From Fragilariopsis cylindrus CCMP1102 (lineage: Eukaryota > Bacillariophyta > Bacillariophyceae > Bacillariales > Bacillariaceae): 64,000 nt of DNA. This document shows, one piece after another, positions 12,745 to 60,410 of this stretch. The DNA lies in the NCBI GenBank assembly GCA_900095095.1, contig FMBT01000296.1:124001-188000 (forward strand), in the 5' to 3' direction. Position numbers and translations under genes: made by a program. Each line of letters starts with the position of its first letter. The stretch's first letter is position 1. The notes under the pieces are model-generated. The model saw only the letters and a list, made by a program, of their open reading frames with translations. It had not been told where the DNA came from and ran no database searches.

Positions 12745-13700
12745 TTGAGTCGTTTTGAAAACCATCCTCCTCCTGCTCCTGCTGTTTTTGCTGGTGATGA
12801 ATACGACGATTCTTCTTTCTTTCATGTGTCGATGTTAATGGGAAGCGAAATGGCGCTCAAACCAATTGAAATGGAGAATAATTCCATTTTTGTATTACCC
12901 GTATGTTTGATTTTGCACCTCTCCTGTTCATCCTTCCTCCTATCATTACAATTGGTGCTGTTTTCATCGTCATTGTCATCATCCTCATCGTCGATACGGT
13001 CTGTAGCAGAAGAAGAAGAAGCGACAGCAGAAGAAGAAGCGACATCAGAAGAAGAAGAAGCAATACTGTGATATCATCACAACAACGACGACGACAACAA
13101 CAGCAACGACGATTCATTTGATCCTACCTTCCTCACCGGTGTTGCTGTCGACTTTGATTTCCTCCTAGAACCTAATCCCCATCACCATCAGGACGGCAAT
13201 ATTAATAATTATTGGATTTCAGAGGGACAAGCAGAAGAGATGACAGCAGATGGTGTTGAATTTCCAAATGCAAATGATTGGAAGGATGATGCACCAGGTG
13301 TTATTTCTAATACAGAAGTATCTATGGATAAAGCTCGTAGGCATACATGGAAATAAGCAAAGACAGAGATTGGAATCCTCCGTGCTGTATGGGAAGAAGA
13401 TCATCCTTAATTTAGTAAGCTTGCTACTAGAATATTTGGACCTAAAAGCAAGTTGTTTCACTTACTTGAAGAAGAATTATCATTATCATATGAAAAATGC
13501 TGCAGATTTCTTGCCATTTTCTTTTGTTGCATCATGTAGAAGTACACCTGTCGTAGCATCTTGTACTTGGCTTGATGGACTACTAGTACGTTCATATTTA
13601 AATCATTACCCACCATTATCATCGCAAGCTTCAGTAGGAAAGATATTGTTAACGCGTTTTGTTTTCCCATTCCTTCCAGTATCATCTTGATTGAGAACTT
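12745..13700 (+). pseudogene. Decayed coding relic, possibly piggyBac-type transposase N-terminal part
   Basis: Protein-like sequence is spread over several plus-strand frames: an ORF at 12745 (MSRFENHPPPAPAVF...), an acidic stretch at 13077-13356 ending 'DKARRHTWK', and, after a stop, a piece with 'FGPKSKLFHLLEEELSL' and 'CCRFLAIFF' at about 13415-13530. The last part resembles, from memory, the N-terminal region of diatom piggyBac-type transposases, and a clear piggyBac fragment lies at 21222. No single frame joins the pieces, so it is called broken. Assignment to piggyBac is weak; the relic character is moderately sure. Confidence 0.35.
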
Positions 13701-14499: not shown

Positions 14500-16027
14500 G
14501 TTACCCTTCTTTTGATAAGACGTTTCCTCTTCGTCTTATTCTTAATCAAATCCCTATTTGATATCTTCTTCTTCTTCTTCTTCTGCTGCTGTTCATCCAG
14601 TTGGATTATCGGCGTCAGACGCGGTGGCGTGGCCTCGACTTCTTCTGTAGTACAGCTCTCTTGTATTCTTATATACGCGTTCGTCTATATTTTTATTCTA
14701 TCTAGTCGTGACTTACGTACAGTACAGTACGTCAATCTACCAAAATCGAAATTGATGTCGGTTCCTGATGTACAGATCGAATCCCTGAGTAGCAAATAGC
14801 TACAGTTGAATGAATCAAATCAGTTCTATTACAGATCAATTCTTGAATAGCAAGTAGCTATTAAATGAATCGATACATTCGTTTGTCTTTCTCGAGATGA
14901 TGATGACGATGATTCTACTATTGATCCAGACACTTCGGATGACGATGACGACGACGACGATGAAGATGAAGATCAGGTCAGTGAATTGCCTAATGTTGAG
15001 ATTGACAATGAGTAATGAGGAAGACTACCAGCTCTACCAGAAGATGGGATTGATGAGTCTTCGTCGTCGCGACTAAGACCACCATTGCTAGTATTAATAA
15101 TATTAATAATACTCAACCACTTATTTTCAGAAGAACTTCTAATATACTTTTTGATTGAAATTCGATCGAAATGAAGGGCATGGGAAATTATTTGTTTCCA
15201 TCATTCACAATCCATACCATTGCTTCTACTAAAATTAGAAATAGAACACCTACCTTGATTGCTCAAATCATCCCAAAACACTTCGAAATCATCATTTGTG
15301 GACCCCCCCCCCCCCTGGTGTTTTCATCAGTTCGTTGTCGACGATGAACAATATTATGATGTTCCTTATCCTTTCCTTGCTTTTTATGTGTCAAAAATTT
15401 ACATCTTGTTCGTCGTCGAAGACAACAAAAAATGAATCTTTTTGAAACGTGGATAAATCTCAAATAGGAGATTTAAAAATCACCAAGGATATTTTTTGGA
15501 CTATACTTGACCATCTAACAAGTTTAATAAATATATGTATTGATCCTTATTATCAATGTTCGCAAAAACTACAGTAATATCATACCTCTTCATACATTTA
15601 TTTGTAAGCAGCATATATTCATTTGTAAGCCTGTATTTGTATTCAATATAACTTGAGCAGTGAAACACATGCCATCATGTCATGATGCCATGATGTCATT
15701 GTCTTTGTCATGCTGTCTCATACCAATCAGTCCTTTTATTTGAGTCATGCAAGTAGTGGTACAGTACTGTAGTGACAAGTGCACTTAGATTAATTAGGAG
15801 ATGCTACCAACCAGTATAGTATAGTACAGTACAGTAACATTACCTCCCCTTTACTCTGCTGAAAATAAAAGCATAGGAAAATGTATTAATTCCTATTTAT
15901 TCAAGGCATGTATTGACTTGAACAGTACTTATAATATGGTACTACAGTAGTTTTAAATTGAAATTAAAAGAGAGAGGTAGCTAGCTAGCTAACTGTATAC
16001 TTTTTATACACTTCCACTGCCACTTTA

Positions 16028-16180
16028 CTGATGAACGTAAATGTTACACACGTCACGTGTCGTCAAAGTCACATTTGAAGAGACAATTGACATATGTCAT
16101 CTGATTCTGAACATAGGTCAATTGTCTCTTCAAATGTGACTTTGACGACGCGCGACGTGTGTAACATTTACGTTCTTCAG
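16028..16180. repeat. Long foldback: 64-bp inverted arms, 25-nt centre
   Basis: Arms 16028-16091 and 16117-16180 are reverse complements with three mismatches ('ctgatgaacg' against 'ctgaagaacg', and two C-to-T type differences inside 'acgtcacgtgtcg'). The transcript would form a stem of about 64 bp with a 25-nt loop. It carries no ORF of note. It could be a foldback MITE or a small-RNA precursor. It sits about 400 bp upstream of MetAP2. Confidence 0.9.
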
Positions 16181-20110: not shown

Positions 20111-21221
20111 TCATCATCACCACCATAATTAAGGAACTATTGTACCATCATATCTGGCGTTGCTGTTACGATTTCTGCTGCTGGCGACTGTGCTTATCTT
20201 GTTATACTGCTGTCTCTTTTTTCTTATTGCTGCTGTTTCTGTTCTTTTCGTAATCTTGCTTTTGTTGACATGCTGCCGTGGCCTTTTTCTTTCGTCTTTG
20301 CTTTCGTAGACTTGTGTTTAAGATCTAAGCAAACCTACCGAACGCGCCACCCTTTGGGGGGGGGGGGGGGGGGGGATTATTTGACGTGATGAAAAAATAA
20401 GCTTGTACAGTACTTCATCCATATCATTCTATTCCTCTCCTTTCCGGTTGGCTATAATAGACGACTGTAGTCGAGTCGAGTCTAGATTTATTACAGCTTC
20501 ACCACCAGTGTATAATTAACATCTAATTCTTCTTCTTTCGGTTTTGATTCTATTGTAATTCTATTTAGTTAACGTACTGTAGTTATCGGTCTATATCTAT
20601 TATTTTTACCTCCGTAATATTGACTCTTCACCGACAATCTAAGACTTGTGCATCATCGATACATAGCACGAATGTTAACAACGGGCCAAAGCATTCAAAG
20701 TTTTCCAATGATGGGGCCCAGTTTATGATGTTAGCTAATTCTTGTGAGCATTGAAAAATCCATTCACGTCATGTCATGTCATGTCATGCCATGTATGATT
20801 GGTTCGATTCGATTCGATTCGTAACACATACCGATATGTTATAATAAGAACATTTTACGCAAACAATCCACCAAATAAAGAATAAGAGTATACAAAAATC
20901 AACCAATCTACCAAACAAACAAAGCCATATATATATATATAATCGGGGGTAAGGAATGTTGGATCGAATGAATCGTCCATCGTCCATCGTTGTTGTTGTT
21001 GTCAGATACCTTCCGGGATGGTTGGTTGTTGCTTTATCTTTTGCTATTGTTATTTGCTGCTGCTGACGCCAATAACGATGGTAAGAGTAGGAATAAGCTG
21101 CCGCTGCCGATGGAGATGATATGTCATTTCCGTCGTCGTTGGTGAGAGAGATGACGGGAAGGGACTGCAACTAAACTCAAGATCATGGTTTCCCTTTATA
21201 TTAAAGGTTCATTGTGTTGTC
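20111..21221. other. Intergenic
   Basis: Contains a G20 tract at 20356-20375, a (GATTC)n-like run near 20800-20820 and a 'tatatatata' run at 20930. A minus-strand open frame at 20784-21170 (128 residues, starting MQSLPVISLTNDDGND) has some coding character at its N-terminus but a microsatellite-derived hydrophobic C-terminus; it is not supported as a gene. Confidence 0.4.
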
Positions 21222-21609
21222 ATGGACTCAGCTTACATGGGTGATCCTATGTGTCAAGTTTGGAAGGGAAGAGTGGGGTATTCACATAGTTGGTACGGTT
21301 CAATCATCCCATACTGGTGGTGGACGTTTATTTGGGCAAGCTTGCTATCAAGGAGAAGGAAAATTGAAAAAGGGCACACACAAGTCTCTCCTCTCATCAA
21401 CACAACACCAAGCCTGGGTTGATAATAACTTTGTCAAGACACTTTCTAATTTCCATGCACCTACTATTGTTCTAGGTGGAATGAAGAGACGTGTAAGAGA
21501 TCCAGTCACCAAGAACAGAGCTAGGGAACAAACAGATATGTTGATTGCAATGCTCAACAAGATTGACTACTGTACTGCAGGCGTGTTCCGGCTCAACGTG
21601 AGTTCTTGA
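21222..21609 (+). pseudogene. PiggyBac-type transposase fragment
   Basis: Two plus-strand frames carry transposase-like text. The first begins 'MDSAYMGDPMCQV' at 21222, like the catalytic-Asp segment of piggyBac (DDE_Tnp_1_7) transposases. After about 40 bases the homology continues in the neighbouring frame ('GREEWGIHIVGTVQS', then 'WVDNNFVKTLSNFH' and 'GGMKRRVRDPVTKNR'), which ends at 21609. The frame change and the short length, about a quarter of a full transposase, show a dead fragment of a DNA transposon. No TIRs were found around it. The family call rests on motif memory. Confidence 0.55.
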
Positions 21610-27488: not shown

Positions 27489-28355
27489 ATGTCGTCGTCG
27501 GAAGGAAAACCTGGAGAAGATTCGACTACAAGCAAAGAAGATCCGACTTCTGGAGGTATTTTGTTGTCGCAGGAAGGAAATGGAGAAAATTTAAGAATGA
27601 ATTGTTATTCTTATTTGAATTCAAGCAAAGACGATGGTCTGAATAGACAAGATGTAGATCTTTACCGAAGGAAACTTCGATCTAAAATGACCAAAACGAA
27701 GTATGTGAACGTCCTAGCACATAAGTATTATGCAAAGAAACATTTGCTCTTTATATTCCTCCCAATACAAATCTTATCTGTTTGGACGACAATTGCGGGT
27801 GCTGTATTTGCTTTTCTGCTGGTAGACGAAACCCAATCGCCAGGAAGATTATTGATCGATGCTCTCGAAACCCAATCGCCAGCAAGAGCATTGGTCGATG
27901 CTCTTGTTGGGGCCAGTCTTTTAATCTTGACAAATTTGAGCAATGTTTTACAGTATGATGCTTTGTCCAAACAGCATATGTTAGTTTCTGCTCAAATGGA
28001 TAATTTAATTGATTTTGTGGACTTTGCAACTGAAAAAGGAGGAACAGATGAATACTACGATTGTATCAAAGAGATAGAGAATAACTTCAAGGTAACTATC
28101 AGCAATGACAAACTCTCCCCTCCAAGTGAAATAAAGTTGGCTTTTGATATTCTACAAAGTAAAATTGAAGTGAAATTAAATGAAAAATCTCGGAGAAATG
28201 TTTCCACCACCTATGATCCAATGATGGAGTATGGTCTTTTAGCAAGTTTCATTGAAAGTAGAATCAATTTATGTACCATGTTACCAAATTCACGAAGATC
28301 AGCCAGAATGATTGATGATATCCTTGATGACAGTAAAATGAATAATACCGCATAA
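27489..28355 (+). CDS. Two-TM membrane protein, SLATT-like
   Basis: Start chosen at 27489 (aaacATGtcg, A at -3); the frame is open back to 27399, which would add 30 hydrophobic residues. Protein of 288 residues. After a Ser/Gly-rich N-terminus and 'YRRKLRSKMTKTKY' comes 'HKYYAKKHLLFIFLPIQILS', a first TM helix, a short loop, and a second TM helix in 'ALVGASLLILTNLSNVLQ'. The C-terminal half is soluble and helical ('SKQHMLVSAQMDNLIDFVDF'). This two-TM plus helical tail arrangement resembles SLATT-type proteins, also found in large DNA viruses and algae; in bacteria these are membrane effectors. The loop holds a 13-residue tandem duplication, 'ETQSPGRLLIDAL' and 'ETQSPARALVDAL'. Function unknown; the family call is tentative. 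Confidence 0.6.
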   Translation: MSSSEGKPGEDSTTSKEDPTSGGILLSQEGNGENLRMNCYSYLNSSKDDGLNRQDVDLYRRKLRSKMTKTKYVNVLAHKYYAKKHLLFIFLPIQILSVWTTIAGAVFAFLLVDETQSPGRLLIDALETQSPARALVDALVGASLLILTNLSNVLQYDALSKQHMLVSAQMDNLIDFVDFATEKGGTDEYYDCIKEIENNFKVTISNDKLSPPSEIKLAFDILQSKIEVKLNEKSRRNVSTTYDPMMEYGLLASFIESRINLCTMLPNSRRSARMIDDILDDSKMNNTA

Positions 28356-30785: not shown

Positions 30786-31789
30786 GTTGTTTTAGATTCG
30801 AAGTATTGTATGATACTGTATACAATAATATTAATAATATGATAGCTATGATGTCACGGTGATGTAACCTCGAAAACATACATCATCAAAGCATCAACTC
30901 ACCAGCACATACTCGAATACACACACACACATCAAAAAAAAATTAACTTCCCTCCCGAAAAAAATTGAGCGAGAAAAGAAGAAAGAATCATCACCTCCCC
31001 CCCCCCCAAAGTACTTCCTCCAGAACTGCACGCGCACTATCGTTTGAAAAATTAGCTAATGCACGCTAAAACACGCGCTTAACGAGAGGGAAAATGTGAA
31101 GCTAAAACAAAGAATAAGGATGGAATGATACAGTACTCAAAACTGTGCAACAGAATAGATCAAAATAACTACAGTATCATTATGATTGAATCATATAAGC
31201 TATATTTATATCTATAAGTACTACTGTGTGTGTTTATTAATGATGAATAGATATTGTACATACTTTACTTGTTGCTTGTTGTGATTGCAAATACAGTAGT
31301 TGATTCACCCATTTCTCCCCATAGATTATCATGTGTATTGTTATGTTTGTATTCATAGATCTGTTTGTTGATGATGTATAGATCATAGATTTCGGATCAG
31401 ATCCATTATTTGTTGATTCACCCAATCCCCCCATAATACAGATATGCAAGATATTATGTACCACACTTCAAACACCACAATGGAGAGATCTTGATGCTGT
31501 CACAAACTCATCACCACCTTCACAATCAATAATTGCATGAGCAAATTTGAGCATGATGCATGTATGCCTGAGACAGAGTAGATAGTGGATAGTTGTCATA
31601 TACATTGTCATGTTCAATTCCCTTCAAAAGTTCTTCTCCCTGTAGATAATAAGACCCATTGTGCATACCTTGATATGCTGTTGTTAGCATCTTTGCCATG
31701 GAAGGGAACAAGTTACTGTGCACCTATGAGTTGAAGTGATTCTGCATTAGACTTGTATGGTGCTTGCTCCTCCTTAGATAGCATTTCAG
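30786..31789. other. Intergenic next to the rDNA fossil
   Basis: Contains a C11 tract (30997-31007). Around 31300-31440 the phrase 'ttgattcaccca' repeats, and 'agattatcatgtgtattg' echoes a stretch near 4231. A minus-strand frame at 31723-31526 reads like protein ('MAKMLTTAYQGMHNGSYYL') but is short and unrecognised; it may be a scrap of a gene. Confidence 0.4.
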
Positions 31790-33246
31790 ATGCTGCCTAT
31801 ATCTTAGATTTGACTAGCCCATGTCCAATTGCTGTTCAGGTGGGACCTTTCTCCACTTCAGTCTTTCACCAAGATCTGCACTAAAGGAAGTTTCACTCTG
31901 CCTCACGGCACGAGCTGCACAACGATCTTCACGCCCTCCTACTCACCAACACTAAACACTTGCGCTGGTGGTGGATTATAAGTGGCCTGCTTCAGCGCCA
32001 TCCATTTTCAGGGCTAGTTCATTTGGCAGGTGAGTTGTTACCTACTCCTTAGCGGATCCCTACCTCCATGGCCACTGTCCTGCTGTCTATGCTATATGAA
32101 CCAACACCTTTTGTGGAATATAGGTGAGCGAGCACTTTGGCACTTTATCTCCACGTTTGGATCATCCCACATTGCCAAACCAGCTTATCCGGTGTGGCCC
32201 ACTAGCAACCGTTATTCGAATGCAGGGTTCAATTAAGCAACCCCAGTTCTTACCCATTTAAAGTTTGAGAATAGGCCAAATTTATTACGCTCCTGGAACC
32301 TCTAATCATTCTCTTTACCATATAAAATTAAACAACCAGTTGCAGCTATCCTGAGGGAAATTTTGGAGGGAACCAGCTACTAGATGGTTCAATCAGTCTT
32401 TCGCCCCTATATCCAAATTTGACGATCAATTTGCACGTCAGAATCAATACGAGCCTCCACCAGAGTTTCTAATGGCTTCACCCTATTCAGGCATAGTTCA
32501 CCATCTTTTGGGCCCTAACATGTATGCTCACACTCAGACCGTTCTCCCAAAGGATTGAGGCCGGTGGATTGTGCAAAATATCCAACCACTGTCACTTTCA
32601 TTACACACCTGAGTTTGACACCCCTGTACTCGCACATATGTTAGACTCCTTGGTCCGTGTTTCAAGACGGGGTAAAGAAAATCATTTTGCCTGCATCAGT
32701 CAGATCCAGTGCTAGCAACAAACATCAAACCTGTCTGCGCTCTTCCAAAAGATTCAACCAACCCAAACTCACGCAAGCTTACAGCGCCCAAACCACAAGT
32801 GGCTAGGGAAATATGAACCAACAAACACTGGTCTCCTTTGTTTCTGTTTCAGCAATTTTAGGTACTCTTTAACTCTCTTTTCAAACTTCTTTGCATCTTT
32901 CCCTCATGGTACTTGTACGCTACCAGGTCTCCCACCAATATTTGAGTTTAGATGAAATTTACCACCAAGTTAAAGCTGCAAAAGCTGCAATCCCAAACAA
33001 CTCGACTTGTTGACACATGACTCACTCTACTAGGCAGGCGGGAGTCTCCCCCTCTCAGCTGTCCTGTTCCAAGGAACTTGACCCGGCAAATAACTACAGA
33101 CCACAATTCAGCGCCATAAAAGGGCAGATTCACATCCTGAGCTAGTCCTGCTGCACTAGCTGTTACTGAGGGAATCCTAGGTACTTGCTTTTCCTCCGCT
33201 TAATTATATGCTTAAACTTGGCGGGTCCTCTTGCTTGATCTGAGAT
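31790..33246 (-). pseudogene. 28S rRNA pseudogene, 5' half
   Basis: Minus strand. The 5' end of 28S is recognised at 33246-33165 ('cttaaacttggcgggtcctc' and 'gcttttcctccgctt' on the plus strand). Further landmarks are 'ttacccatttaaagtttgag' near 32250, 'caggtgagttgttac' near 32028 and 'gctgttcaggtgg' near 31830. The match fades near 31790, so only about the first 1.45 kb of a roughly 3.4-kb molecule remains. Many conserved sites differ, mostly at CpG. A functional copy is very unlikely. Confidence 0.85.
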
Positions 33247-33599
33247 CCGGAATTGGATAGTGAATAAATCATAAAAACTGAATGCTAGATCCTGAAAGCT
33301 TGTCAAAATCAATTCAAACAGCTAGTGTTAACATCCTTAAATAAACTCCAGAGAAATATAAATCAATACAAGCTACCAGAGATAGACAAGATCTTTCACA
33401 GGACAACAATGTTAAAGTTTCAGAATCTATGCACGTGGTACAATTGTTGAGTTGCTCCCGAATCCGCTACAGTGTTGATGATGTATTCTTCATCTTCTAC
33501 GATTGCTGCTAGTGCTTTATAGGTGTTGCTCGAAGAATAACAGTATGAAATTGGGTTAATAGGTTGTTTATATTTATTTGGTGCTATTTCAATTATACT

Positions 33600-35309
33600 G
33601 TCATTCCTCCAACCCCATCAAGTAGATCGTAGGTGCATGTTACGTGTGGATCCGCCCATGGGATTGGTTGCTGTTGCTTCCTTTTTGTGCGCTGCTGCGT
33701 CCTTGATGTACTTGCAGGTCATACTGTTGTGTTTGATATCAAAGCCACAGGTCCAACAGTACTCATCATTGGACCATCGTCGGCATGTCCTAGTGCCATC
33801 CTTGTTGTTCTTGGGGAAGCCATTGCTTCCTAGCGCGCGAAAGCCTCCGCCACCTCCTCCACCACTTCCACTCTTGTTGAGCTCAAGTTGATTGAGTCGA
33901 TCAGTTAACACTTGGATTTGTTGTGATTTGGCGTCCATGGTCTGTTGTTGTGGTGGTGGTGGTTGTCTTTCCGCCATTAGGGCTGCACAGTGTTGTTCAA
34001 GTAAGTTGATCTTCTGGTTGGCTTCCATTGATGCTTGGGCAAATACCTTCATGTTTTCTTTGTTTTTGTTGATCTCTTCCTTCACAGCATTGGCCATTCC
34101 AAGTGCTTTGAGTGTTCCAGTATCATTTTTGTTGTCATTGATGGCCTTTGTGAAGTGAGATTTGAACTTCTTCCATGTTTTGTTGACTGTATCCTGTTTC
34201 TTCCACTCCTTGATATCCAGTTTCAAATCGATGTGCTCTTTGAACTGATTTAGTCCATGCCGAATGAGCGTTGCTTCATCAATTGATTCATTCAACGATT
34301 CCAGGGTGTTCCTCGCATCTTGAACTAGCTTGTAGTAGACTTGGGGTTCTTCCGTTGGATCATACTGTTGCTCCAGGACCTTGTGTAACGCTGTAACTTG
34401 GTCTGCTACATCCTCTGGTTGGACGTACTGGTCCATGAGGTGTTGGAATAGTTCAATGGCTGTGTAGCCAACGACGTCACCATTGTTATCCTGCAATTCC
34501 AGGAAGTGGTAGTCTTTGAATGCGTGCATGATCATCTTCTTTGTTGCTGCTTGTGCTAACTTGTATCTTTTCCAAGCTAGGAGCTTAGTCTTGTGGATTT
34601 CGTGTGCATTGTGCGTTGCTCCAGTATACTCTCCAGGGTTGGTTGGTGGCACAATGACGTGAGTGATTTCTCTTTTCTTCAACCAATCCACATCATCCCA
34701 CACGATATAGGAGTGACCATGATCATGTGTTCGTGGATCGGCACATACCCGTGTTTGTAACTGTTTGCTGATTTCTCTTCTTGCTCTGGTGATGCTGAGT
34801 AGGGTTGGTGTAATGATATTACAGGTGATGGTGGTCAAGTCGATTTCGTCTTCTGTTTCCTTCATCTTGCTTCCTGTTGTGGTATACGATTTTGTATACT
34901 ACTGTCTGTTATGGTATACGATTTGGTATACTGTCTGTTTACGGAGTGTTTGGCTGTTTGCCTACCGTTTGTCTTTGTCTTGTTTAGTGTCTCTCAGTGT
35001 TGTTGCTTTAAGCGACAATATAACTTTAGACTGTTGAGCTACGATATGGCGTATACTTTGGTTATTAACTAATGTCTAAAGTTATTATGAGCTATCTATC
35101 TTAGCATCCTAACTGGCTTGTTGGATCCTATTGCAACTGTCTAACTCACTCCGTACGCTATTCTAGCTAATGAGTGGTTGATATTCAGTTGGTTTGAATA
35201 GGTCAAGCTCGCCTGGTGGCAACTGGCTGGCTGGGCTGTTGTATTTGAATACTCTCTAGTAACGGGTTTGCGCGCCCCACTCGCTAGTGACTTGAGTATT
35301 TCATCAACA
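33600..35309 (-). mobile_element. Copia-class (CoDi-like) LTR element fragment with gag, inserted in ITS2
   Basis: Minus strand. A gag-type reading frame of 415 residues lies at 34865-33618: a helical Gag core, then Gln/Pro and Gly-rich linkers, then a zinc-knuckle variant 'CWTCGFDIKHNSMTC' near residue 370. This layout fits diatom Ty1/copia elements. Upstream, an LTR-like stretch runs from about 35309 ('tgttgatgaaatactcaag' on the minus strand) to about 35000. The gag frame looks whole. No pol region is seen beside it and no matching second LTR was found by eye, so the copy is partial. It interrupts the ribosomal spacer and is younger than the decay of its host rDNA. Confidence 0.7.
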
Positions 35310-35374
35310 ATGAATGTAGAACTTAGGCAGAGACTACTACTAGAGCAGTCAGAGTCAAAATAACCAGCGATTCA

Positions 35375-35509
35375 CAGACACTCAGACAAGCATGCTACCT
35401 GGAAAATCCCGAAAGCAATGTGCGTTAGGTCTTGCAATTTGCATTACGTATTGCATTTCGCTGCGTTCTTCATCGTTGTGGGAACCTAGACATCCAATGC
35501 TGAAAGTTG
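35375..35509 (-). pseudogene. 5.8S rRNA pseudogene with internal deletion
   Basis: Minus strand. The 5' block (complement of 'cattcgctgaaagttg'-like sequence, here 'catccaatgctgaaagttg') and the strongly conserved 'gaagaacgcagcgaaatgca' segment are clear, as is the 3' 'gcatgcttgtctgagtgtc'. The universally conserved segment around 'tgaatcatcgaat' is missing, shortening the gene to about 135 nt from the usual 155-160. It cannot be functional. Confidence 0.88.
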
Positions 35510-35744
35510 TAAGCCATTAGGTATAATGTACAGGGTGATGTTGGCACAATTGCTTGGCACAACATCAGAACCACTGCATTTTAGCTTTAGGTCATTTGGT
35601 TCTTTCCAGTTACCAATCATAAAGAATGGGGGGGGGGGGGGGGGGGTGACAAAATGAAATGAAACAAATCAAGTTGCCACTTTGATTGAAACCAACAATT
35701 TGCAGTGAAGCAAAAAGTTGGAATCAAGTTGAAAGCATCAGTGT
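35510..35744 (-). other. ITS1 remnant and lost 18S 3' end
   Basis: Between the 5.8S and 18S relics. No 18S 3' end landmark is present, so about 300 nt of 18S is deleted or beyond recognition. A G19 tract lies at 35628-35646. Confidence 0.6.
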
Positions 35745-36021
35745 TGCACGCGTGCGGCCCAGAACATCTCAGAGCATCACAGACCTGTTATTGCCCCTAT
35801 CTTCCTCCGTCTAAGAAGCCCAAATGCAGTGATAAACACTACACGTGCTATTAAGCAGGCAGGGGTCTCGTTTGTTAACGGAATTAACCAGACAAATCAC
35901 TCCACCAACTAAGAAGGGCCATGCATCACCACCCATAGAATCAAGAAAGAGCTCTCAATCTGTCAATCCTCACTATGTCTGGACCTGGTAATTTTTCCCG
36001 TGTTGAGTCAAATTAAGCCGC

Positions 36022-36055
<34 letters not shown>

Positions 36056-36562
36056 TCTTTAAGTTTCAGCCTTGCAACCATACTCCCCCAGGAACCCAAA
36101 GACTTATGATTTCTCACAAGGTGCTGACAGAGACAAAACGAAACTCCACCAACAATCCCTTGTCAGCATAGTTTATGGTTAAGACTACAATGTTCTCGAA
36201 TCATCTTTGATCCCCTAACTTTTGTTCTTGATTAATGATGCTTTTGCAGTAGTTTGTCATCCAAAAATCTAGGAATTTCACCAACTGTCCTCTTAATCAT
36301 TACCTCAGTGCGCAAACCAACAAAATAGTACCAAGGTCCTATATCATTATTCCATGCTAATATATTCAGAGGCATAAGTCTACTTTAAAAACACTCTAAT
36401 TTTTCCAAAGTAAAATATGGGCATCCCCTGCACAACAACTTAATGCCACACAGATTCCACCCAAACATAGCAGACCAGTAAAGCACTATCACTCAAAGAG
36501 CAAAGGCCAACTGGACACACCATAAATCCAACTACGAGCTTTTTAACTGCAGCAACTTTAAT
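35745..36562 (-). pseudogene. 18S rRNA pseudogene, central part
   Basis: Minus strand. Clear landmarks on the plus strand: 'gtgcggcccagaacatct' (35752), 'ggaattaaccagacaaatca' (35879), 'caatttctttaagtttcagc' (36050), 'catagtttatggttaagact' (36166), 'gattaatgatg', and 'ctacgagctttttaactgca' (36531). Both ends of the gene are missing. Compared with conserved 18S, most differences are CpG to TpG or CpA, for example 'ccttgcaaccatactc' for 'ccttgcgaccatactc' and 'aacttttgttcttg' for 'aactttcgttcttg'. Confidence 0.9.
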
Positions 36563-36789
36563 GTCTATTTGTTGTGTCTTCATTTTTCATTGGAAATCAC
36601 ATCAATATTGACTGTGCACCTAGATGTGTTGTGTGACACCTCAAAACAATGTTGTCCAGTAATTTACATACTATTGCATACTGAATGGATGTTAAAAACA
36701 AGAAAAGGGATACTTGGCATATCCTGTTTAATAATAGTTGGCTAGGTAGGTGGAGAGCAAAGAGCAGCAATTGATTTTGAACACAGTCT

Positions 36790-37320
36790 AAATGGTTGTT
36801 CAGTAATATTGGTATATCACTGGTGCATACACCCACATCTAATAATACATGCCCATGTTGGTCCAATTTCTATCAACCAAACAGTATAAACAGCAACAAC
36901 AACTTGTCAAGGATCCATTCCTGGGTCATGCTATACTTTTGTCTATTCCTGTTAACCAAACAATAAACAAGAACAACAAGGTACAACACCAATAGTGTTG
37001 GTGCATCACTGGTGGTATGATTTATCAACTCCTGTTTTAAAGCAGACAGGCTTGTTCTATCTATTTCTGCCAACCAAAAGATATGAAGCAACAACTCAAG
37101 AGCTGATGCTACTGTGTGAGAATTTGTTATGCACTACCTGTAGCCTCCTTCATTTTGCAATATTGCAAAGGGTAAACAGCAGCAGTATTGGTATGTCACT
37201 GTTAGTTGTGGCCAACTCCTGAGGCATTTATGTGGTGTTCATGTATATGTTAGGTTATAATATTTCTGCCAACAACAGAAAGATATAAAACAGCAGCAAC
37301 AACAACAACAATTACGACAA
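36790..37320. repeat. Degenerate tandem repeat, about 100-200 bp units
   Basis: Units share a 'ttggtatatcactggt'-like start (36808, 36998, 37188) and a 'tttctgccaaccaaaagata'-like end followed by CAAC runs (36866, 36943, 37065, 37263). It lies on the upstream side of the 18S relic, where an external or intergenic spacer would be expected, and may be a fossil of spacer repeats. Confidence 0.6.
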
Positions 37321-39777
37321 TTGCTTTGTTGGAGCTGTTGTAGTAACTATTTTGTCTTAGTAGTTACTATACTGGCTTCCAATTTGTTTATCTTTTTCTT
37401 GGTTTAAACTACAGAATATTATAATAATAATAGAAAGGATGAATTATTGATACGGTATGCAACAACTTTTAAGTTCAGTGTATTGAGGTGTTGTGATGTC
37501 ACCTATCAACAACAGTTTTTGGTGCACGTGCTGTACGTAAGTTTGACGCACACTTCTACATTGTATATATAAATTAATGAAAAAAGAACATGCATCATTT
37601 TTTCGAGAACAATACGTAAAACGCAATATGACATGTGGCCCTAAGACTCATTCTTTTTGCGAAAAAAATAATACCACGTATAACGGATTAGGCGAATGAT
37701 CTTCCTTCGTTCCAGCGACTTCGGGAAGTGTATTGGTGTAGGATTAAGTGGGTTGTACTCCTTACTCTCCAAAAAAGAAGAACAGGTTAAACGGAGTATG
37801 AAATATCCATTCGATCCAATCAAATCACAAAACAAGAACCGATTGATAAACACGCACAACAGTCACGAATGAAAAAAGTGTTGTGGGAAAATACTAATAG
37901 ATATAAATAAATTGTCTACTATCTTTTATTTTAGAGTCAACTATGATTGAAATACGTAGTACTAGTAAATTAGTTAGTATGCATAGTTTCTTCGCTGTCC
38001 CCAACATATTTTCCATTCCCGCAAAGAGATTTCCGTTCAAGACATTCGATGGCTGTTCAGTTTATCTTTTACTTGTTGTTGCTTGTCGGTAGGCAATTTT
38101 ACAAGAATGAGAACAGAGGCTGGAATGAATGAAACTTAAATGCCACACTTACACGTGCCAATCACGCACAATCCCGTAAGACACAAGAAAGTTTATATAT
38201 GCCTGTTTCATTTTCTCTCCCCCCCACCACCATTTCCAATTCTTTGCACTCTCTAATTACCATACAGTTGGGTTTTTTGTACGTCATTGCGATTGTGATT
38301 CGATGAATGAAAATGAATGATTCATTCACATTTTGCTAAATAAATCATAAAATTCGCACTAAATTTAAATTCATACTAAAATCTAAATAAATCACTTACT
38401 TAATTACGCTAAACTTCTCGCATTTGCCGATGCCATTTCGACTCCATATTTTTTTTACGGTATTTACAATCGACGCCGTAAAACTTTTTATCATTCCGAC
38501 GCGATTGTTGAAAACTCTATGCAACCTTTACAAGTAGGGACAAGGAGACTGACTCGATACTACTACCGTTACCCGGTAGTATTAATCACAATTAAAACAA
38601 TCAATAAACACAGTGTAACAATACACACAAAATCAAATACAAGAAATCCATTGTCAAATAAGTAATCATACCTTCAAACACACTGCAACACATACCACTT
38701 GTCACAGAGCGACATTTATTAATCTACTCTGATTGGATTTTGATTTGAATGCCATCGATCGATCGGAATGTAAAAGCGAGAAAAACAAGTTTCCAAAAAA
38801 ATATCAACAATCTCATTATTTCCATTCCAACCTCTCTTAAGTACCATAAATACTAGTTTCATTATTTCCTTATTCTAAACGGCACGTGACTTGACTCATT
38901 TATAATATAAATTAAATGTTAGTGAAATAACTTTCTTCATTGATCAACACAACACATAATATAAGAAGTAAGTTATACTTGCACACACTAAAGAATTTTC
39001 TTTGGCATGTGATGCACTCATTTCTCCTCTCTGAAATCGAAATCTTCTCTTAAGTTTGACACTTTGACACAAGAGCGAAAATGGTAACGATGTTTTGCCA
39101 CTTGCTTTCATCATGCAGACTGACTCTGACTCTGACTCTTTTTCATTGCTCTATTAATTATTTTGCTTGCTTTTGCGTCCCCGCAGATAAATAAAATAAT
39201 TATTGTTACAGTAACAATCATTCATCGACTACGATCAACTCCGGTATATCAGGTGTATACGGTTGTTTCATTTGCATCATCCTTGTAAGTAAAATTAAAT
39301 AAATGCCGTACGTCGTAATCTCTGTCTATCTGTTTGTATGTGGGTGTTCGGCTGTGATGCTGTGTGTGTGGCTTCATATTATTGTGGCTTCATTTGCTGT
39401 GGCTGTGGCTGTAGTGAACTATTGTGTTATTGCTATTGTTATTGCTGCTGTGTGCGTGTGTGTTCGATCGGTCGCTATAATATTCAAAATATAAATACAA
39501 ATTAAAATCGAATCCGAATGGAATGGAATCGATTATGAATCTCTCTCTCTCTATATCTATACTCTTTGCCTGTCCTGTCCTGTCCTCGTTTAAAAAAAAA
39601 TCTCTCAAGAATACATGCATGCTTCTCACAACCAAATCACAAAATCTTCCTCTCTATCTCTCCCTCTCTCATCTCTGTCTAAAGAAACTACAGTCCAACA
39701 AGTATAGTAGCATTCCATTCCATTTCGTCATCTCGGTCATCGTCACAGCCACAGTCATAGTAAGCGTCACCTTTATA
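37321..39777. other. Long AT-rich intergenic region
   Basis: About 2.4 kb with no supported gene, only short open frames. The last part, before the cyclin, has CT-rich runs at 39538-39552 and a pyrimidine-rich leader. Confidence 0.5.
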
Positions 39778-45657: not shown

Positions 45658-48600
45658 ATGAGTCTACCGCAAAATAAAAACGACTACATTGAGTGTGGCA
45701 TTATTGGAATTGATGATGATGAAAACAATAATAGTAAGCATGTAGCACATACCGAAAGCAATAACAGTAGTAGTTTCATTGCAACTGATGATTATAGTAC
45801 ATCCAATAGCGACGAAAATGAAAGAAACAAATCAAGTGATGTTCCTATTGTTTTTGCCTCTGAAGACTTCAGCAGCAAGTCCTCAGCAGTTGGAAAAAAG
45901 AAGAAGGAAAAGAATTCGTCAAGTAAAGCAAATAAAAATAATGAAGAAGTTAATCCTTCCAGCGTTAAACCAAAAGATAAAGAAGAAGAAAAAGAAGAAG
46001 AAGGAGGAGGAGGAGGATGTAACAATAAGGAAGTTGCAGTATTAGTATTACCACCCAGTAACAAAAACACCATAAATTGTAATATCAATACCAATAACGG
46101 TAGCAGCAGCAGTATCATCAGCAAAAGTAACAACGCTATCTTGGTATCAAAATTAAACAATAATGAAGAAATAGTCCATTTTCCTGACTGTATATTAGAA
46201 AAAGAACGAGACGATTATGGAGCGAGCAACAAGAAAGTTGCAGAACAACGAGTATTACCCAGTAACGAAGATGACTTTAGTAATAGTAGCACCTTCACTA
46301 GCAAGCCGTATCCTGCAGACACCTACTCATTTTTATGTCTTTATGGTCCTGTCGAGAATCCTGGTTATTTTTCATATGGTGTTATGGTGTACCTATTCCA
46401 GATGACATTCCTTGTACTGATGGTGCTTAGTGTGACCCATCCGGACTGGTCCAGTAATGGTGACGCGGATAATCCTGATGGAGGAAGAGGATCTATTCTA
46501 GCAAGAATTGCAGTATTTGTTCCATCACATGTTAGTCCACTAGTTAGAGCTACCCAAATTACAGCTACATTGTCATATGTTATTTTTGCAGATTCAACTG
46601 TGCTTGACGTTGTCACAGCTGTTGAATTATTTCCACGTTTTAATCAGGCAACAAGTGACGATAAGCTTGGGTGCATGATATTTGCTTCTATTCTACGTTT
46701 AAGTCAGGGTATTTTTGCAATAACTGTAACACTCTTACTAATTGTAACTTCATCCACTACAATTGAAATTATCTTAAATTTCACAGCAATTAATTTTATT
46801 TCAACTCTTGATAATGTTGGATTTGAAATTATTAAGTGGGGAAAGTATGGAACAAAGTTTGAAGAGGAAGCAAAACGCATTGAGAAGCTACCACTTCCCA
46901 GATGCATCTACAGGAAATACAAGCATGTTCGATATTTATGTACTATCATCCCCGTTGGTGTGATATTGTTTTCAATGATATGCTTTATGATTATTCTTCA
47001 GGAAAGTAATAGTCATTGGGTCACCAAAATATTTAGGGTTCAATTTCGAGACAAGGAACAAGGACTACAGGTATACAATGGCTGCTATCAGAAGAATGAA
47101 GATGCTATCAATAGGTATGAAGGATTTAGAAGAAAGTTATATGAGAGTTTTGGGTATAACTCTGAGAGTGCTAAATTTGGATATTGTATTGATGATCGTC
47201 GCTGGATCCTCTTCAATGGTAACAGTACTAATGCTTGTGAGGCACGTGGCAATGATAATGAATTAGCCCGTTCTTCAAAAACAGATACCTTTGATGTTTC
47301 AACAATGTTTGAAGAACAATGGTATACTTCAAGTACACCTCTTGAAGTTTACTTTGTTGAAGAAAATGGTGATATTGAATTAAATAATAATACGTGTTTA
47401 TCATTTATTGGTGATAGTAATTGTGATTCAGTTCTTAATGAGTTTGATTTTCAATATGATGGTGGAGATTGTTGTGCTGCTACTTGCTCTGGATTCAATT
47501 GCGGTATTGGATCCCTCAAGAATGCATTTGGTGCAACAGATAATATTAGATCTGGAGATGGTTTCCCCAATTGTGTAAATCCTGATATGGTCCCTATAAC
47601 TATTCGTCTTGATAATATCTTACGCAGTTTTGATCCTTTTACTATTTCTATTCCAGATGGGTCTAATAAAAGTTCAACTATTAATGATATTCCTACGAAT
47701 AGCGTTGATGATGACTCCTATTTAAAAGAGAAGTTAATAAAGGGACCAATAAAGCCATTACTACTTATTGACTGTGATGGAAGTAATGTTTTGAGCATTT
47801 ATGTTGAAGAGTCCATGGAAAATCAAACAGAAACAATTATGGTTAGTGATGGTGCTGATTGTACCATGACTATTAGAAATGATGGTAGTGCTATTAGAAA
47901 TAATGGTAGTCCTTCTGATCCAATTTGGAATGCAGACTATACAATTTTACATGGAGACAAAAAATCTATTGAAAGTAATTTGATTGTGGTTGCTCAGTCT
48001 TCTAGTGCTAAAGAAAGTACTTACGACTTTAAAAGGATACCAGAATGTTATCTTGATAAGCTTTCTGATTATATTGATAGATCAATTGTTTATAATGGTA
48101 TTGATTTTGACCCAACAGCAAAAGCAGTTAATTGGTTAATGAATGATGAATCAGAAACCTCAATGTGTGAGGATCCTTTTCTCCTTGAAAGATATGCATT
48201 AGCTGTAATTTACTTTGCTGCTCCCTCAAACTTTCCTGATTACGCATTGATTAGTACAACAAGACAATGTGTTTGGCCCAGCATCATATGTGATGAAGGA
48301 ACTGTAATAAGTTTGAATATGAACAATAAAAGTCTTATCGGTACCATTCCAAGTGAGATAGGATTGTTGACCTCACTTGGAAGTCTTTCTATGTTTTCCA
48401 ATGCTCTTACTGGTACCATTCCCAGTGAGATAGGATGGTTGACCTCCCTTGAAAATCTTAGTTTGGATTCCAATGCTCTTACTGGTACTATTCCCAGTGT
48501 GATGGGATTGTTGACCTCACTTCATTTTCTTTCTCTGGATACAAATAAGCTAACTGGTACCATTCCCAGTGAGATAGGATTGTTGACCTCACTTAACATT

Positions 48601-49299
48601 CTTTCTCTGTCTTATAATGCTCTTACTGGTACCATTCCCAGTGAGATTGGACTGATGACCTCACTTGGAACTCTTAATTTGCAGAGCAATGAGCTAACTG
48701 GTTCCATTCCCAGTGAGATAGGATTGTTGACCTCACTTGATTTTCTTCTTCTGGGTTTCAATGCTCTTACTGGTACTATTCCCAGTGTGATAGGATTGTT
48801 GACCTCACTTAACATTCTTTCTATGTTTTCAAATGCTCTTACTGGTAACATTCCCAGTGAGATAGGATTGTTGACCTCCCTTGATCTTCTTTATTTGGCT
48901 TACAATGCTCTTAACGGTACTATTCCAATTGAGACTAAACTGTTGACTTCACTTGAAGAACTTTATTTGTCTTCCAATGAGCTTACTGGTTTCATTCCCA
49001 GTGAGATAGGATTGTTGACCTCCCTTGAAATGCTTTCTTTGCATTCAAATGTGCTTAATGGTTCCATTCCAAGTGAGATTGGTCTGTTGACCTCACTCAA
49101 TAGTCTTAATTTTGCTATCAATGAGCTTATTGGTTCTATTCCCAGTGAGATAGGATTGTTGACCTCCCTTGAAGAACTCTATTTGTGTTACAATGCTCTT
49201 ACTGGAACCATTCCAAGTGAGATAGGATTGTTGACCTCACTTTATGATATTAATTTTGAAGATTCCAATGTGTCAAATCATACATTATGTCCGTTCTGA
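45658..49299 (+). CDS. Multi-TM, LNR and leucine-rich-repeat protein
   Basis: Protein of 1213 residues, single exon. Residues 1-230 are disordered (Asn, Ser, Lys and Glu tracts). Residues about 239-450 hold four to five predicted TM helices, including 'VMVYLFQMTFLVLMVLSV' and 'IIPVGVILFSMICFMIIL'. Then an extracellular-type region with a Notch/LNR-like Ca-binding motif 'FDFQYDGGDCC' inside a Cys cluster (about 580-610). Residues about 890-1205 are 13 LRRs of exactly 24 residues, consensus 'TGTIPSEIGLLTSL', the plant-type spacing common in diatoms. It ends soon after the last repeat, with no C-terminal TM or kinase. The likely role is recognition or adhesion at the cell surface, inferred from architecture. 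The LRR block is very uniform in DNA, so repeats have been homogenised or recently expanded. Confidence 0.85.
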   Translation: MSLPQNKNDYIECGIIGIDDDENNNSKHVAHTESNNSSSFIATDDYSTSNSDENERNKSSDVPIVFASEDFSSKSSAVGKKKKEKNSSSKANKNNEEVNPSSVKPKDKEEEKEEEGGGGGCNNKEVAVLVLPPSNKNTINCNINTNNGSSSSIISKSNNAILVSKLNNNEEIVHFPDCILEKERDDYGASNKKVAEQRVLPSNEDDFSNSSTFTSKPYPADTYSFLCLYGPVENPGYFSYGVMVYLFQMTFLVLMVLSVTHPDWSSNGDADNPDGGRGSILARIAVFVPSHVSPLVRATQITATLSYVIFADSTVLDVVTAVELFPRFNQATSDDKLGCMIFASILRLSQGIFAITVTLLLIVTSSTTIEIILNFTAINFISTLDNVGFEIIKWGKYGTKFEEEAKRIEKLPLPRCIYRKYKHVRYLCTIIPVGVILFSMICFMIILQESNSHWVTKIFRVQFRDKEQGLQVYNGCYQKNEDAINRYEGFRRKLYESFGYNSESAKFGYCIDDRRWILFNGNSTNACEARGNDNELARSSKTDTFDVSTMFEEQWYTSSTPLEVYFVEENGDIELNNNTCLSFIGDSNCDSVLNEFDFQYDGGDCCAATCSGFNCGIGSLKNAFGATDNIRSGDGFPNCVNPDMVPITIRLDNILRSFDPFTISIPDGSNKSSTINDIPTNSVDDDSYLKEKLIKGPIKPLLLIDCDGSNVLSIYVEESMENQTETIMVSDGADCTMTIRNDGSAIRNNGSPSDPIWNADYTILHGDKKSIESNLIVVAQSSSAKESTYDFKRIPECYLDKLSDYIDRSIVYNGIDFDPTAKAVNWLMNDESETSMCEDPFLLERYALAVIYFAAPSNFPDYALISTTRQCVWPSIICDEGTVISLNMNNKSLIGTIPSEIGLLTSLGSLSMFSNALTGTIPSEIGWLTSLENLSLDSNALTGTIPSVMGLLTSLHFLSLDTNKLTGTIPSEIGLLTSLNILSLSYNALTGTIPSEIGLMTSLGTLNLQSNELTGSIPSEIGLLTSLDFLLLGFNALTGTIPSVIGLLTSLNILSMFSNALTGNIPSEIGLLTSLDLLYLAYNALNGTIPIETKLLTSLEELYLSSNELTGFIPSEIGLLTSLEMLSLHSNVLNGSIPSEIGLLTSLNSLNFAINELIGSIPSEIGLLTSLEELYLCYNALTGTIPSEIGLLTSLYDINFEDSNVSNHTLCPF

Positions 49300-53162: not shown

Positions 53163-54058
53163 GACAAAAAAAAAATGCTGCCTTTTATAATCAGAAAAAT
53201 ACCATCGTCAATACCACTCTCCCTTCCTCCTTTCTTGTCCATTTTCCACCAAACCAACGCTAAATCTATAGATTATGACTTTCCAGTGCGTTCTCTATCA
53301 ATTTTCCTAAACTTCTACGATTCAATCATCTTTGAAAAGCACCCCAAATATTACGAAGAAAAGAGGAGATAGTAGGTGTAATAGAAAATTTGTCTTGACA
53401 GCGTATCAACGATAGGGTGTTAATGCGGTTGTTGGAAAAAGGAAAAAAACACCTAAATGAACGATTTTGATTGGCTAAAATACTAGCATTTCAAAGTGCG
53501 CATCATGATGTATGTGTGTGTCATTGTTGAGAAATTGTTTTACTGTGCTGCTGTACAGTACTTAGTATTTCGCGTCCTGCCTGCATTTGTGAGTGCATTT
53601 ATGATGCAATACTGTACTGTATATATCGTATACTAGTATCACAATAAAGACACAATAAAGACAAGAAACAAACAGAGACACAACAAGACAAGACAGCATC
53701 ATCATCATCATCATCCTCATCGCTATCCTCCAATCCCAAAAACAGCGAACCTTGTCGTACTGTACTTAAAACTTGTACCTTACTTTTCTACTTTCCTTGA
53801 TTCGATTCGGTTGGATTCGATTCAGATTATTCACTGTACTGTACTTTGCATTTACTAACTAGCTAGCTAGCTATTACTCTTGTACCGACGCAACGCAACG
53901 TAACGCAACGCCTTGCGACCGTACTTGTACTTGTACAACCGATATATCAACTCTGCTCAGCTCAGCTCTGCCTTCTCTGATCGACAATCAAGAATAAAAG
54001 AAACAAGACCAAGAACAAAACAAAAACAAAACAAAACAAAAACAAAAGAAACAATAGA
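51361..54058. other. Intergenic, repeat rich
   Basis: No supported gene in 2.7 kb. Repeats: (CAGTT)n at about 52610-52640, (TCG)n at 52797-52830, an A run of about 27 at 53130-53156, (CAT)n at about 53696-53715, 'ctagctagctagct' at 53860, and AAAAC runs just before the TMEM220-like gene at 54010-54050. 'gtacagtac' palindromes occur around 53560 and 53610. Confidence 0.5.
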
Positions 54059-54784
54059 ATGGGAATATTAAATGATATTACTACTACAAAATTAGATTCC
54101 TATGCAATCAATATATATTGTATCGTGTCGGCATTATTTTTTTCAGCCTGTGGATATGCACAATTAAATGATCCATTACCCTATTCAGTATTCTGGTTTT
54201 TGGCATATATAGTGGGTGGTACTGTTCCTAATTTATATTGGATCACAAGAAGTAATTGTACAAATAATGGTAATAGTAATGGTGGTAGTAATGGCGGTAG
54301 TAGTACATCAACATATAATAGCAAACAAAGATATGTACTACAATTACTTTTGTTCTATGGATTTACATCTATAATGATTCTTTGTATACTCTATAAGATG
54401 ATAACTGTTGCACCAAAATTATTTGCAGATGATGTAACACAACATCATTATGGTATAGTATGGGCTTTCATGGAACATGAAGAAGGACGTGACTCATGTG
54501 GTCTATTGTTGTTAATATTACATGTTTTATATATGAATACAGTGTTATCACGTACTACGGATCCTACTCAAAGTAGTAGAAGAAATAGTGAAACTAGTAC
54601 AACAACTTATAAACGTTTTATTAGTATTGTCTGTTCACCAACAATAGTATCAATATTTTTATTGATGGTATTAGGTATATCCATCTATACCTGGATTGTC
54701 CATCATCCAGAGATGGTAGCAAAGTATGGAGTACCACATTGTCAAGGTACGATGTTTGGTCGTGAGGATAATAATGAATTATAA
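54059..54784 (+). CDS. TMEM220-family membrane protein
   Basis: Protein of 241 residues with five predicted TM helices (about 15-33, 43-61, 93-113, 146-162 and 194-213). The first ends in 'YAQLNDP', and the fourth is preceded by 'EHEEGRDSCGL'; both are the hallmark motifs of the TMEM220 family, whose biochemical role is unknown. It is longer than usual family members (about 160 residues) because of a Ser/Gly/Asn insert after helix 2 and a Ser/Thr insert before helix 5. Single exon. Family call is fairly sure. Confidence 0.8.
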   Translation: MGILNDITTTKLDSYAINIYCIVSALFFSACGYAQLNDPLPYSVFWFLAYIVGGTVPNLYWITRSNCTNNGNSNGGSNGGSSTSTYNSKQRYVLQLLLFYGFTSIMILCILYKMITVAPKLFADDVTQHHYGIVWAFMEHEEGRDSCGLLLLILHVLYMNTVLSRTTDPTQSSRRNSETSTTTYKRFISIVCSPTIVSIFLLMVLGISIYTWIVHHPEMVAKYGVPHCQGTMFGREDNNEL

Positions 54785-56986: not shown

Positions 56987-58987
56987 ATGAATTGTTACAA
57001 ACCCAAAAAGCTTTGTTTGCTCTGCTCATATCGAAGTATTGAAAAGAAACAATGGGGTATGATAAGAAATGGTATACCCAACACAAAAACATTTCAACAA
57101 ACTGATATCGGTCTAACCTGTATGAAATGCAACTCGTTTACTTGCATTGATTGCATAAACCATGTTCTTCCTGTAATGCGTCATGACAAGCACAAGTTTG
57201 AATCTACTTTTTTTTTCCGATTATCTAGAGCAAGCGTCCAGTGCCCGACAATCAACTTTTCTTGATAGTCATTCTGAATTCATTGGTCACTGCTGCCTCA
57301 TCGATAAATCATTCAGGTTGGAAACGGATCCTGTTCATCCCAACCAGCACAGGTGTGATCGATCAAGAGAACATTCCATCGATAGCCGATTAAGTGGCTG
57401 TATCTTTTTTCCTGAGTTCCTGTTATTCATTGACAGTCCAATTGACTGTATGGATATTCATACTGTTGGTGGAGAATACGAAATGAAAGAATCAAACAAA
57501 CGCGACACTTGTAGATCGTCATCCTCATCCTCAAAGCATCAAAATAAACATGAATATCTTCCACCAAGATGGCATGGCGTAGTTCCTCATGACTTTGCTG
57601 TTGAGAATGCAATGTTGGCTCCTGATCGGAATGGAGAATTTCCTGATGATTGGAAATCAATGTATATCAACAATCATAAAATTGCCCTTCCACATGATGA
57701 AAATATATTTAAAATGGTACGTTATTTATGTATGCTTTATGTTTGTTCATCTATATTTGCATGCAAAGCTCATCCCTAATTTTTATACAGTACAATTTAA
57801 AAATAATTATCATCAAAGCAACGCGCAAGTTTGATACAAGTAGAAAAGGATGCAACAATCCCACATCGGAGGAGCTGTCAAACAGCTATCTTTTTTGTGG
57901 TAAGGGCCCCCAGTTCCACAATAGTACTTCAAAACTGGACATTACTCTGATTCTGGGTATGGACAAAGGCAGCTCCTATGCATCAATTCTCTTGTGCAGG
58001 TTTCATAAGTTGCATGCAAAACTGTCAACAAAAGCAAAGAGTAACTTGATGTCGTGCTTGTGGGAAAAATTGAAATTAAGGAAGTATGAGTGCAGGAGAA
58101 CCGGTGGATCTTCAGGTGTGCTGAGTTCATCCCCACCAAACCTGATTCGAGAATTAATGCGTTTCCCAGGGGCTTGTCCAAGAAATGGAGTTGGGTCTAT
58201 CTGGATTAGAGGCATCGATGCATGGTTCCTGTATTACATCGGAACCACCGATGGAATAGCGAAGCGGTGCTGCTACATGAACCCTGTTCCAGGTGGTTCA
58301 TTACTCTTGGATCATGCTGCTATCAAAAAGTACAAATTCCTTTCCCATTTTATCAGCACAAAACCAATCACCGCGGTACTGATAAAATCTTTAGCAAAGA
58401 AATTCAAGAACAGCAAAGATTTTTGTGTTAATATCTGTCCACAGGCAATCAATGCAGAGCTTAAAAATATCGAGGAGACTCGATTGATTGTCATCCACAG
58501 AGACAGGTCCCGGAACAGCAAGTTACCCATCGATTTGAAACTAGCAGCTGAGCTGAATATTCCCAAATGTTCTAAGTTCCAGTACTTTTATACTGTGTAT
58601 AATCTGAACTTTGTTAAGGCTACCTTTGTCCTGCATGCGGTTGGATTTCACAGAGATACATTTGCTGACGGTGATCCATCTTTGGAAAACAAGGTAGTGA
58701 TCGATATCCCAAAAAGTGAGGTTCCTTTTTTCAAGTTTGTGAAGTATTTTCCAAACGGGAGAGGAGGAGGTTCTGGCAAAAATGACTACGCGTTTGGAAT
58801 TCTGGATTGGAGTAGTGGTCATAGGGTCCGTAGACGAACATGGACCGACCCTGCTAATGCGCATCTACCACATGCTCCTACAACTTACGCTGCAGAGCAA
58901 GCCCTTACTCAACAGATATGGAATAATTTTTTCCAGTGTAATGTTCACATTCCAAATGGAGTGACGGTGGCACAACTGAACAGTTAA
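56987..58987 (+). CDS. Cys-finger protein of unknown function (two exons, one frame break)
   Basis: ATG at 56987 in perfect context (caccaccATGa). Residues 1-75 contain a Cys finger: 'CLLC', then 'CMKCNSFTCIDCINHV', probably zinc-binding. At a T9 run (about 57205-57213) the frame must shift by one base to continue into 'SDYLEQASSARQSTFL' and on to 'DENIFKM' at 57716; this could be a sequencing or assembly slip or a true break. An intron of 74 nt (57717-57790, donor GTACGT, acceptor TACAG) joins to 'YNLKIIIIKATRKF', and the last exon runs to 58987 (about 400 residues, 'PGGSLLLDHAAIKK', 'NYVHIPNG'-like end). No domain is recognised in the large C-terminal part, which has balanced composition and looks like a folded protein. 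Confidence 0.6.

Positions 58988-60371: not shown

Positions 60372-60410
<39 letters not shown>

Follow-up and report, generated by a model that had tools for sequence, protein, structure and literature searches.

Does a decayed copy of the ribosomal DNA (rDNA) in a diatom genome bear the trace of past cytosine methylation, and does such a trace belong to the rDNA or to the region in which it lies? The question is raised by a stretch of 64,000 nucleotides of Fragilariopsis cylindrus CCMP1102 (assembly GCA_900095095.1, contig FMBT01000296.1, positions 124,001 to 188,000 of the forward strand), hereafter the window, whose first letter is position 1 and which harbours a degraded part of an rDNA unit on the minus strand at 31795-36566. 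An original prediction, made from the letters and a list of open reading frames (ORFs), had described this part as decayed mostly by transitions at CpG sites. Set against functional rDNA of other eukaryotes, its CpG sites have indeed undergone transitions far more often than its other C and G sites; the rDNA lies within a sharply bounded CpG-poor block of 6.4 kb; and its second internal transcribed spacer (ITS2) is split by an insert with an open gag-like reading frame. We suggest that methylation of the whole block, followed by deamination, probably lies behind this pattern.

The rDNA fragment

Rfam covariance-model searches placed the small-subunit (SSU) rRNA at 36559-35656 in two matches (model positions 606-1116 and 1173-1614 of 1831), the 5.8S rRNA at 35508-35376 and the large-subunit (LSU) rRNA at 33225-31868, again in two matches (model 24-1455 of 3401; a permissive search starts at 33248), all on the minus strand. 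By eye, the likeness to 28S extends past the last match to about 31795. These matches, together with the low SSU score given below, bear out the proposal that 18S, 5.8S and 28S pieces lie here in the normal order on the minus strand, all of them degraded. In the order of the window, the parts are:

31795..33248, minus strand: 28S rRNA gene, 5' part, degraded (Rfam to 31868, the rest by eye)
33249..33411, minus strand: probable 3' part of ITS2, without CpG (from its position between insert and 28S; CpG counted over 33249-33427)
35313..35375, minus strand: probable 5' part of ITS2 (from its position between 5.8S and insert)
35376..35508, minus strand: 5.8S rRNA gene, degraded, with gaps in the core (Rfam)
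35509..35655, minus strand: what is probably left of ITS1, perhaps together with a decayed 18S 3' end, without CpG (from position and CpG count)
35656..36566, minus strand: second half of the 18S rRNA gene, degraded, with internal deletions (Rfam and panel alignment)

With the order of the unit kept and functional features lost (the 18S is preserved only from model position 606, the 28S only to 1455 of 3401, and the 5.8S alignment is gapped in its core), the fragment has the properties of an rDNA pseudogene. Its SSU scored 532 bits (model 477-1831), whereas L005, a functional SSU that is partial and spans less of the model (774-1831), reached 977 bits. The 5.8S of the fragment, with 84.9 bits, fell slightly short of four functional units, of which the weakest had 94.1 (the others 97.9, 117.9 and 175.4). 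Lineage differences included, the rDNA departs from the reference panel introduced below at 108 of 1165 conserved sites (9%). At a diatom-specific 18S primer site (PMC6389951), 4 of the 20 bases differ in the window, as one CpG transition and three transversions. No further Rfam family reached its gathering score in the whole 64 kb, and the rDNA therefore is a lone fragment within the window. It should also be noted that the ITS1 remnant contains 19 identical bases at 35628-35646 (G on the plus strand), which are either real or a sequencing artefact.

CpG transitions compared to functional rDNA

rRNA lends itself well to such a test, since comparison with unrelated species yields the likely ancestral base at many sites and the mutational spectrum is thus readable without close relatives. 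Our panel consisted of eukaryotic rDNA stretches (L001-L008) from distant eukaryotes of other species than that of the window; eight units cover the 18S, seven the 28S and five the 5.8S, and we take none of them to be a diatom. They lie in contigs of public bacterial assemblies, where they probably represent contamination. Sites were counted if at least four panel units were present with at least 80% agreement, and the trimmed count excludes the 18S outside 36556-35735 and the 28S outside 33248-31800, where the alignment is doubtful at the ends, as well as locally poor alignment (<70% of neighbouring conserved sites matching). C or G sites with an unknown neighbour were placed in neither the CpG nor the non-CpG class. 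Two more records (L009, L010), obtained from pattern scans of viral contigs for a diatom reference, were left out of the main count; both seem to be contigs of mixed origin that carry rRNA at one end.

In the trimmed count, transitions were found at 15 of 71 CpG sites and at 12 of 304 other C/G sites of the window (odds ratio 6.5, P = 1e-5), corresponding to a rate per site about 5.4 times higher at CpG. The excess is present under three alignment settings (15-16 of 70-71 against 12-13 of 303-305), in untrimmed alignments (22/84 against 21/326), with L009 and L010 added to the panel (17/76 against 15/276) and at sites on which the panel is unanimous (6/44 against 5/142-145; P = 0.02 for 6/44 against 5/145). 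When each of the eight units was in turn compared to the rest, the pooled controls gave 9/359 at CpG and 68/1556 elsewhere (odds ratio 0.56), and in the trimmed setting none of the eight units individually reached P = 0.05. CpG sites are thus, on the whole, not merely the labile sites of rRNA, and the claim that they change more often than others in this fragment survives the comparison with the controls. The ratio of observed to expected CpG (o/e) is 0.38 in the SSU and 0.45 in the LSU of the window, compared to 0.81-1.16 in the eight SSU and 0.79-1.21 in the seven LSU of the panel.

The original prediction had quoted four such changes from the 18S. All of them are present in the window, but only two hit a fully conserved CG, namely those in GCGAAAG and ACGAAAG, where every one of the 7 units that reach the site keeps the CG. 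In GATCGAAG it is kept in 5 of 7 units, the functional L003 having the same change, and in GCCGAC in 3 of 7; because the CG varies among functional units, these two examples are weak evidence.

A CpG-poor block wider than the rDNA

A likelihood scan, which needs no reference and was calibrated by simulations, delimits the following region and, within it, the flanks of the rDNA:

31084..37526, no strand: CpG-poor block of 6.4 kb, CpG o/e 0.40 (110 seen, 275.6 expected)
31084..31794, no strand: left flank of the rDNA in the block, CpG o/e 0.05 (CpG count)
36567..37526, no strand: right flank of the rDNA in the block, CpG o/e 0.07 (CpG count)

The scan score of the block is 60.5, that of 300 simulated windows at most 14.9, and the background (the block and 46467-49291 excluded) has a CpG o/e of 1.02, the whole window of 0.92. 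The block overshoots the rDNA by 0.7-1 kb on each side, and it begins and ends sharply: the 2 kb beyond either edge have an o/e of 1.26 and 1.16, the 0.7-1 kb just within 0.05 and 0.07. Of 20000 permutations, 1 reached a series of 13 low 500-bp blocks such as that observed here; this run test is weakened by the background itself, which holds a run of 10 blocks below 0.8, so that low blocks cluster elsewhere as well. No gene was recognised in the two flanks when their six-frame translations were read by eye (no family search was made). What had been called CpG-directed decay of the rDNA therefore stands in part: the excess is real, while its share was overstated, and the deficit belongs to a region of 6.4 kb and not to the rDNA alone. 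Neither the block beyond the rDNA nor the insert of 1.9 kb in ITS2 formed part of the original prediction.

Within the block, the loss is layered. The flanks have kept 3 of 52.7 expected CpG (0.06), the spacers 1 of 14.0 (0.07), all rDNA 54 of 132.3 (0.41), and the insert stands at 0.59. Functional spacers reach an o/e of 1.18 when pooled over four units, one of which lies at 0.59. The spacers of the window are poorer in CpG than its rRNA parts (1/14.0 and 52/116.8, respectively; one-sided P = 0.014 in a post hoc comparison).

The insert in ITS2

The two parts of ITS2 are separated by a probable retroelement remnant, of the type with long terminal repeats (LTRs):

33412..35311, minus strand: insert in ITS2 of about 1.9 kb, probable 5' end of an LTR retroelement (read by eye)
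33618..34865, minus strand: gag-like ORF of 415 amino acids, uninterrupted, with a CX2CX4HX4C motif (ORF list; motif by eye)

At both junctions (35312-35305 and 33411-33404), CATTGTTG can be read by eye on the minus strand, and the pair possibly represents the target-site duplication of the insert. Downstream of the gag-like ORF follows a frame that looks like the beginning of an aspartic protease (VADSGA), where the insert ends; the order of protease, integrase, reverse transcriptase and RNase H between two LTRs, as in a Ty1/Copia-like element, is accordingly not seen, and no LTR pair is among the repeats listed for 33100-35700. The ORF had no Pfam match at cut-off (five weak ones lie below it, the best with E 0.012) and no NCBIfam match, and the insert is accordingly assigned to no retroelement family; we call the ORF gag-like from the reading of its motif. 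Upstream of it, two near-identical copies of 27 bases are located at 34874-34932, 32 bases apart from start to start.

Under simulated random substitution, the probability that the ORF stays free of stops drops from 0.55 to 0.012 as divergence rises from 1% to 8%. As the rDNA is changed at 9% of its conserved sites and the ORF is open, much of the rDNA decay had probably taken place before the insert arrived. Its own CpG o/e (0.59; 53 seen, 89.7 expected, counted over 33428-35312) sets it apart from the background (P = 9e-6), while the difference from the rRNA parts is not significant (P = 0.17), and the view of the insert as the youngest layer consequently rests more on the open ORF than on CpG.

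What may have caused the loss of CpG

We consider it likely that an rDNA fragment was stranded in CpG-methylated chromatin, where it decayed by deamination of 5-methylcytosine along with ordinary mutation and deletion, and that it was later struck by a retroelement. Part of one rDNA repeat, comprising the second half of the 18S, ITS1, the 5.8S, ITS2 and the start of the 28S, would have come to lie outside the array, where gene conversion and homogenisation no longer repair it. There it would have been in, or have been pulled into, a small patch of chromatin methylated at CpG, its methylated CpG turning into TpG or CpA at about five times the rate per site of other C/G transitions, with ordinary substitutions and deletions causing most of the remaining damage in parallel. 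The retroelement would have entered ITS2 later, and what is left of it lacks the pol end and the 3' LTR. That the copy was silenced by methylation, as the original prediction had proposed, we infer along the same lines. A sharp-edged CpG-poor block amid normal CpG would then constitute a fossil record of past methylation in the genome of a protist.

Several observations weigh against this explanation and should temper it. CpG transitions are a minority of the changes, 15 of 108 at conserved sites and 5 of 34 in the 18S, and the statement that most differences are of this kind must be abandoned. Transitions at C/G sites with an unknown neighbour are fairly common (15/146). One control, L003, leans towards CpG itself (2/20 against 1/104, P = 0.07), and more so at a looser setting (3/24 against 1/109, P = 0.02). 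Because the panel is distant and of other species, some of the counted decay may be ordinary difference between lineages. The flanks, finally, are putative repeats at best.

The layering invites a bolder extension, which we regard as rather unlikely, namely that the block can be read as a CpG clock and that the rDNA was methylated yet working for a time. According to such a clock, the flanks (0.06) would have been methylated longest, the rDNA (0.41) would have followed, by its arrival or its death, and the insert (0.59) would have been the last to come. The greater loss of CpG from the spacers than from the rRNA parts could mean that the chromatin was methylated while the rRNA was still under selection; if so, this rDNA copy was methylated and nevertheless functional for some time.

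Among the alternatives to methylation followed by deamination, AT-biased mutation without methylation, in which the loss of CpG is merely part of a general loss of G and C, fares best, although we consider it improbable. Transitions from G/C to A/T are found outside CpG too, at the 12 of 304 sites of known and the 15 of 146 of unknown context, and a GC-to-AT mutation bias is described in a diatom (PMC6604790; this paper, PMC10462631, PMC5124317, PMC9998398 and PMC2806351 are cited for the excerpts used here). As the sole cause, plain AT drift was rejected, given the contrast between CpG and non-CpG sites, about 5.4-fold per site, and the normal o/e of the background, the rest of the window retaining its CpG right up to the sharp edges of the block. 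Those same edges would suit a foreign block, introduced by chimeric assembly or by contamination from a species with genome-wide CpG poverty, which likewise speaks against our explanation; we hold this for somewhat less probable still, the window having other CpG-poor stretches, for example 46467-49291. A process like repeat-induced point mutation (RIP), or another enzymatic C-to-T change on repeats in place of passive loss of methylcytosine, was rejected as very improbable, for while RIP has been suggested for 5S rDNA pseudogenes of filamentous fungi (PMC10462631) and 3 of the 108 changes are G-to-A after T, which amounts to C-to-T at CpA when the opposite strand is read, 15 of them are CpG changes, and CpA+TpG is raised in the block relative to the background whereas TpA/ApT is not (0.83 in the rDNA, with flanks and background both at 0.79).

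Relation to known systems

Decay of this kind is already known from other organisms, and the locus presented here is a clear example of it, not a new phenomenon; what it usefully adds is the CpG-poor block, together with the layering of the CpG loss inside it. Dead or variant rDNA with C-to-T changes ascribed to deamination of methylated cytosine has been described in plants and grasshoppers (reviewed in PMC10462631). The fragment resembles these pseudogenes in being dead rDNA with deamination-type C-to-T changes, but the excerpts of that paper mainly concern variation within arrays, whereas here a lone truncated fragment, split by an insert, is found in a larger CpG-poor block. In a limited look at titles and abstract openings of the open-access literature, no methylation-type rDNA decay in a diatom was encountered. 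A study on 18S variation in Chaetoceros (PMC7804092) contains the word 'pseudogene' in its reference list only, and 'CpG' and 'methylat' are absent from it.

Methylation itself has been reported for diatoms. In Cyclotella cryptica, it is mainly of the CpG type and located in repeat blocks sharply set off from gene-rich DNA (PMC5124317); the terms 'rDNA' and 'rRNA' are absent from the main text of that paper. Phaeodactylum tricornutum likewise has mainly CpG methylation, on repeats or transposable elements, and removal of DNMT5a leads to loss of CG methylation on the latter (PMC9998398). In both cases the methylated blocks were measured, while the block described here is known from its mutational scar alone. 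As to the insert, tandem CCHC zinc fingers occur in the gag of some CoDi6 families, which belong to the Ty1/Copia-like elements of diatoms (PMC2806351). The insert resembles CoDi elements in being probably of the LTR type, its ORF containing one CX2CX4HX4C motif by eye; unlike them, it has been reduced to a possible LTR start, the gag-like ORF and the first protease-like residues.

Other CpG-poor stretches and reading frames of the window

CpG poverty is not unique to the rDNA block, as the scan, whose figures cover its first eight segments, gave further stretches. The largest of these seven, 46467-49291 (CpG o/e 0.24), lies inside an ORF of 1213 amino acids of the leucine-rich repeat (LRR) type, with 2 CpG against 35.3 expected in its repeats and 20 against 53.2 expected ahead of them. 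This loss could be due to methylation or to the spread of a CpG-free repeat unit. The shorter segments are 15449-16035, 21156-21581, 57518-58147, 13150-13551, 27897-28292 and 53983-54487. Towards the end of the window, an ORF at 59672-60613 has two C/H-rich motifs, zinc-knuckle-like by eye, and is perhaps another gag remnant; it had no NCBIfam match and a single Pfam match below cut-off. The ORF at 62036-63979 contains a carboxyl transferase domain (Pfam E 1e-133) and is presumably acetyl-CoA carboxylase-like.

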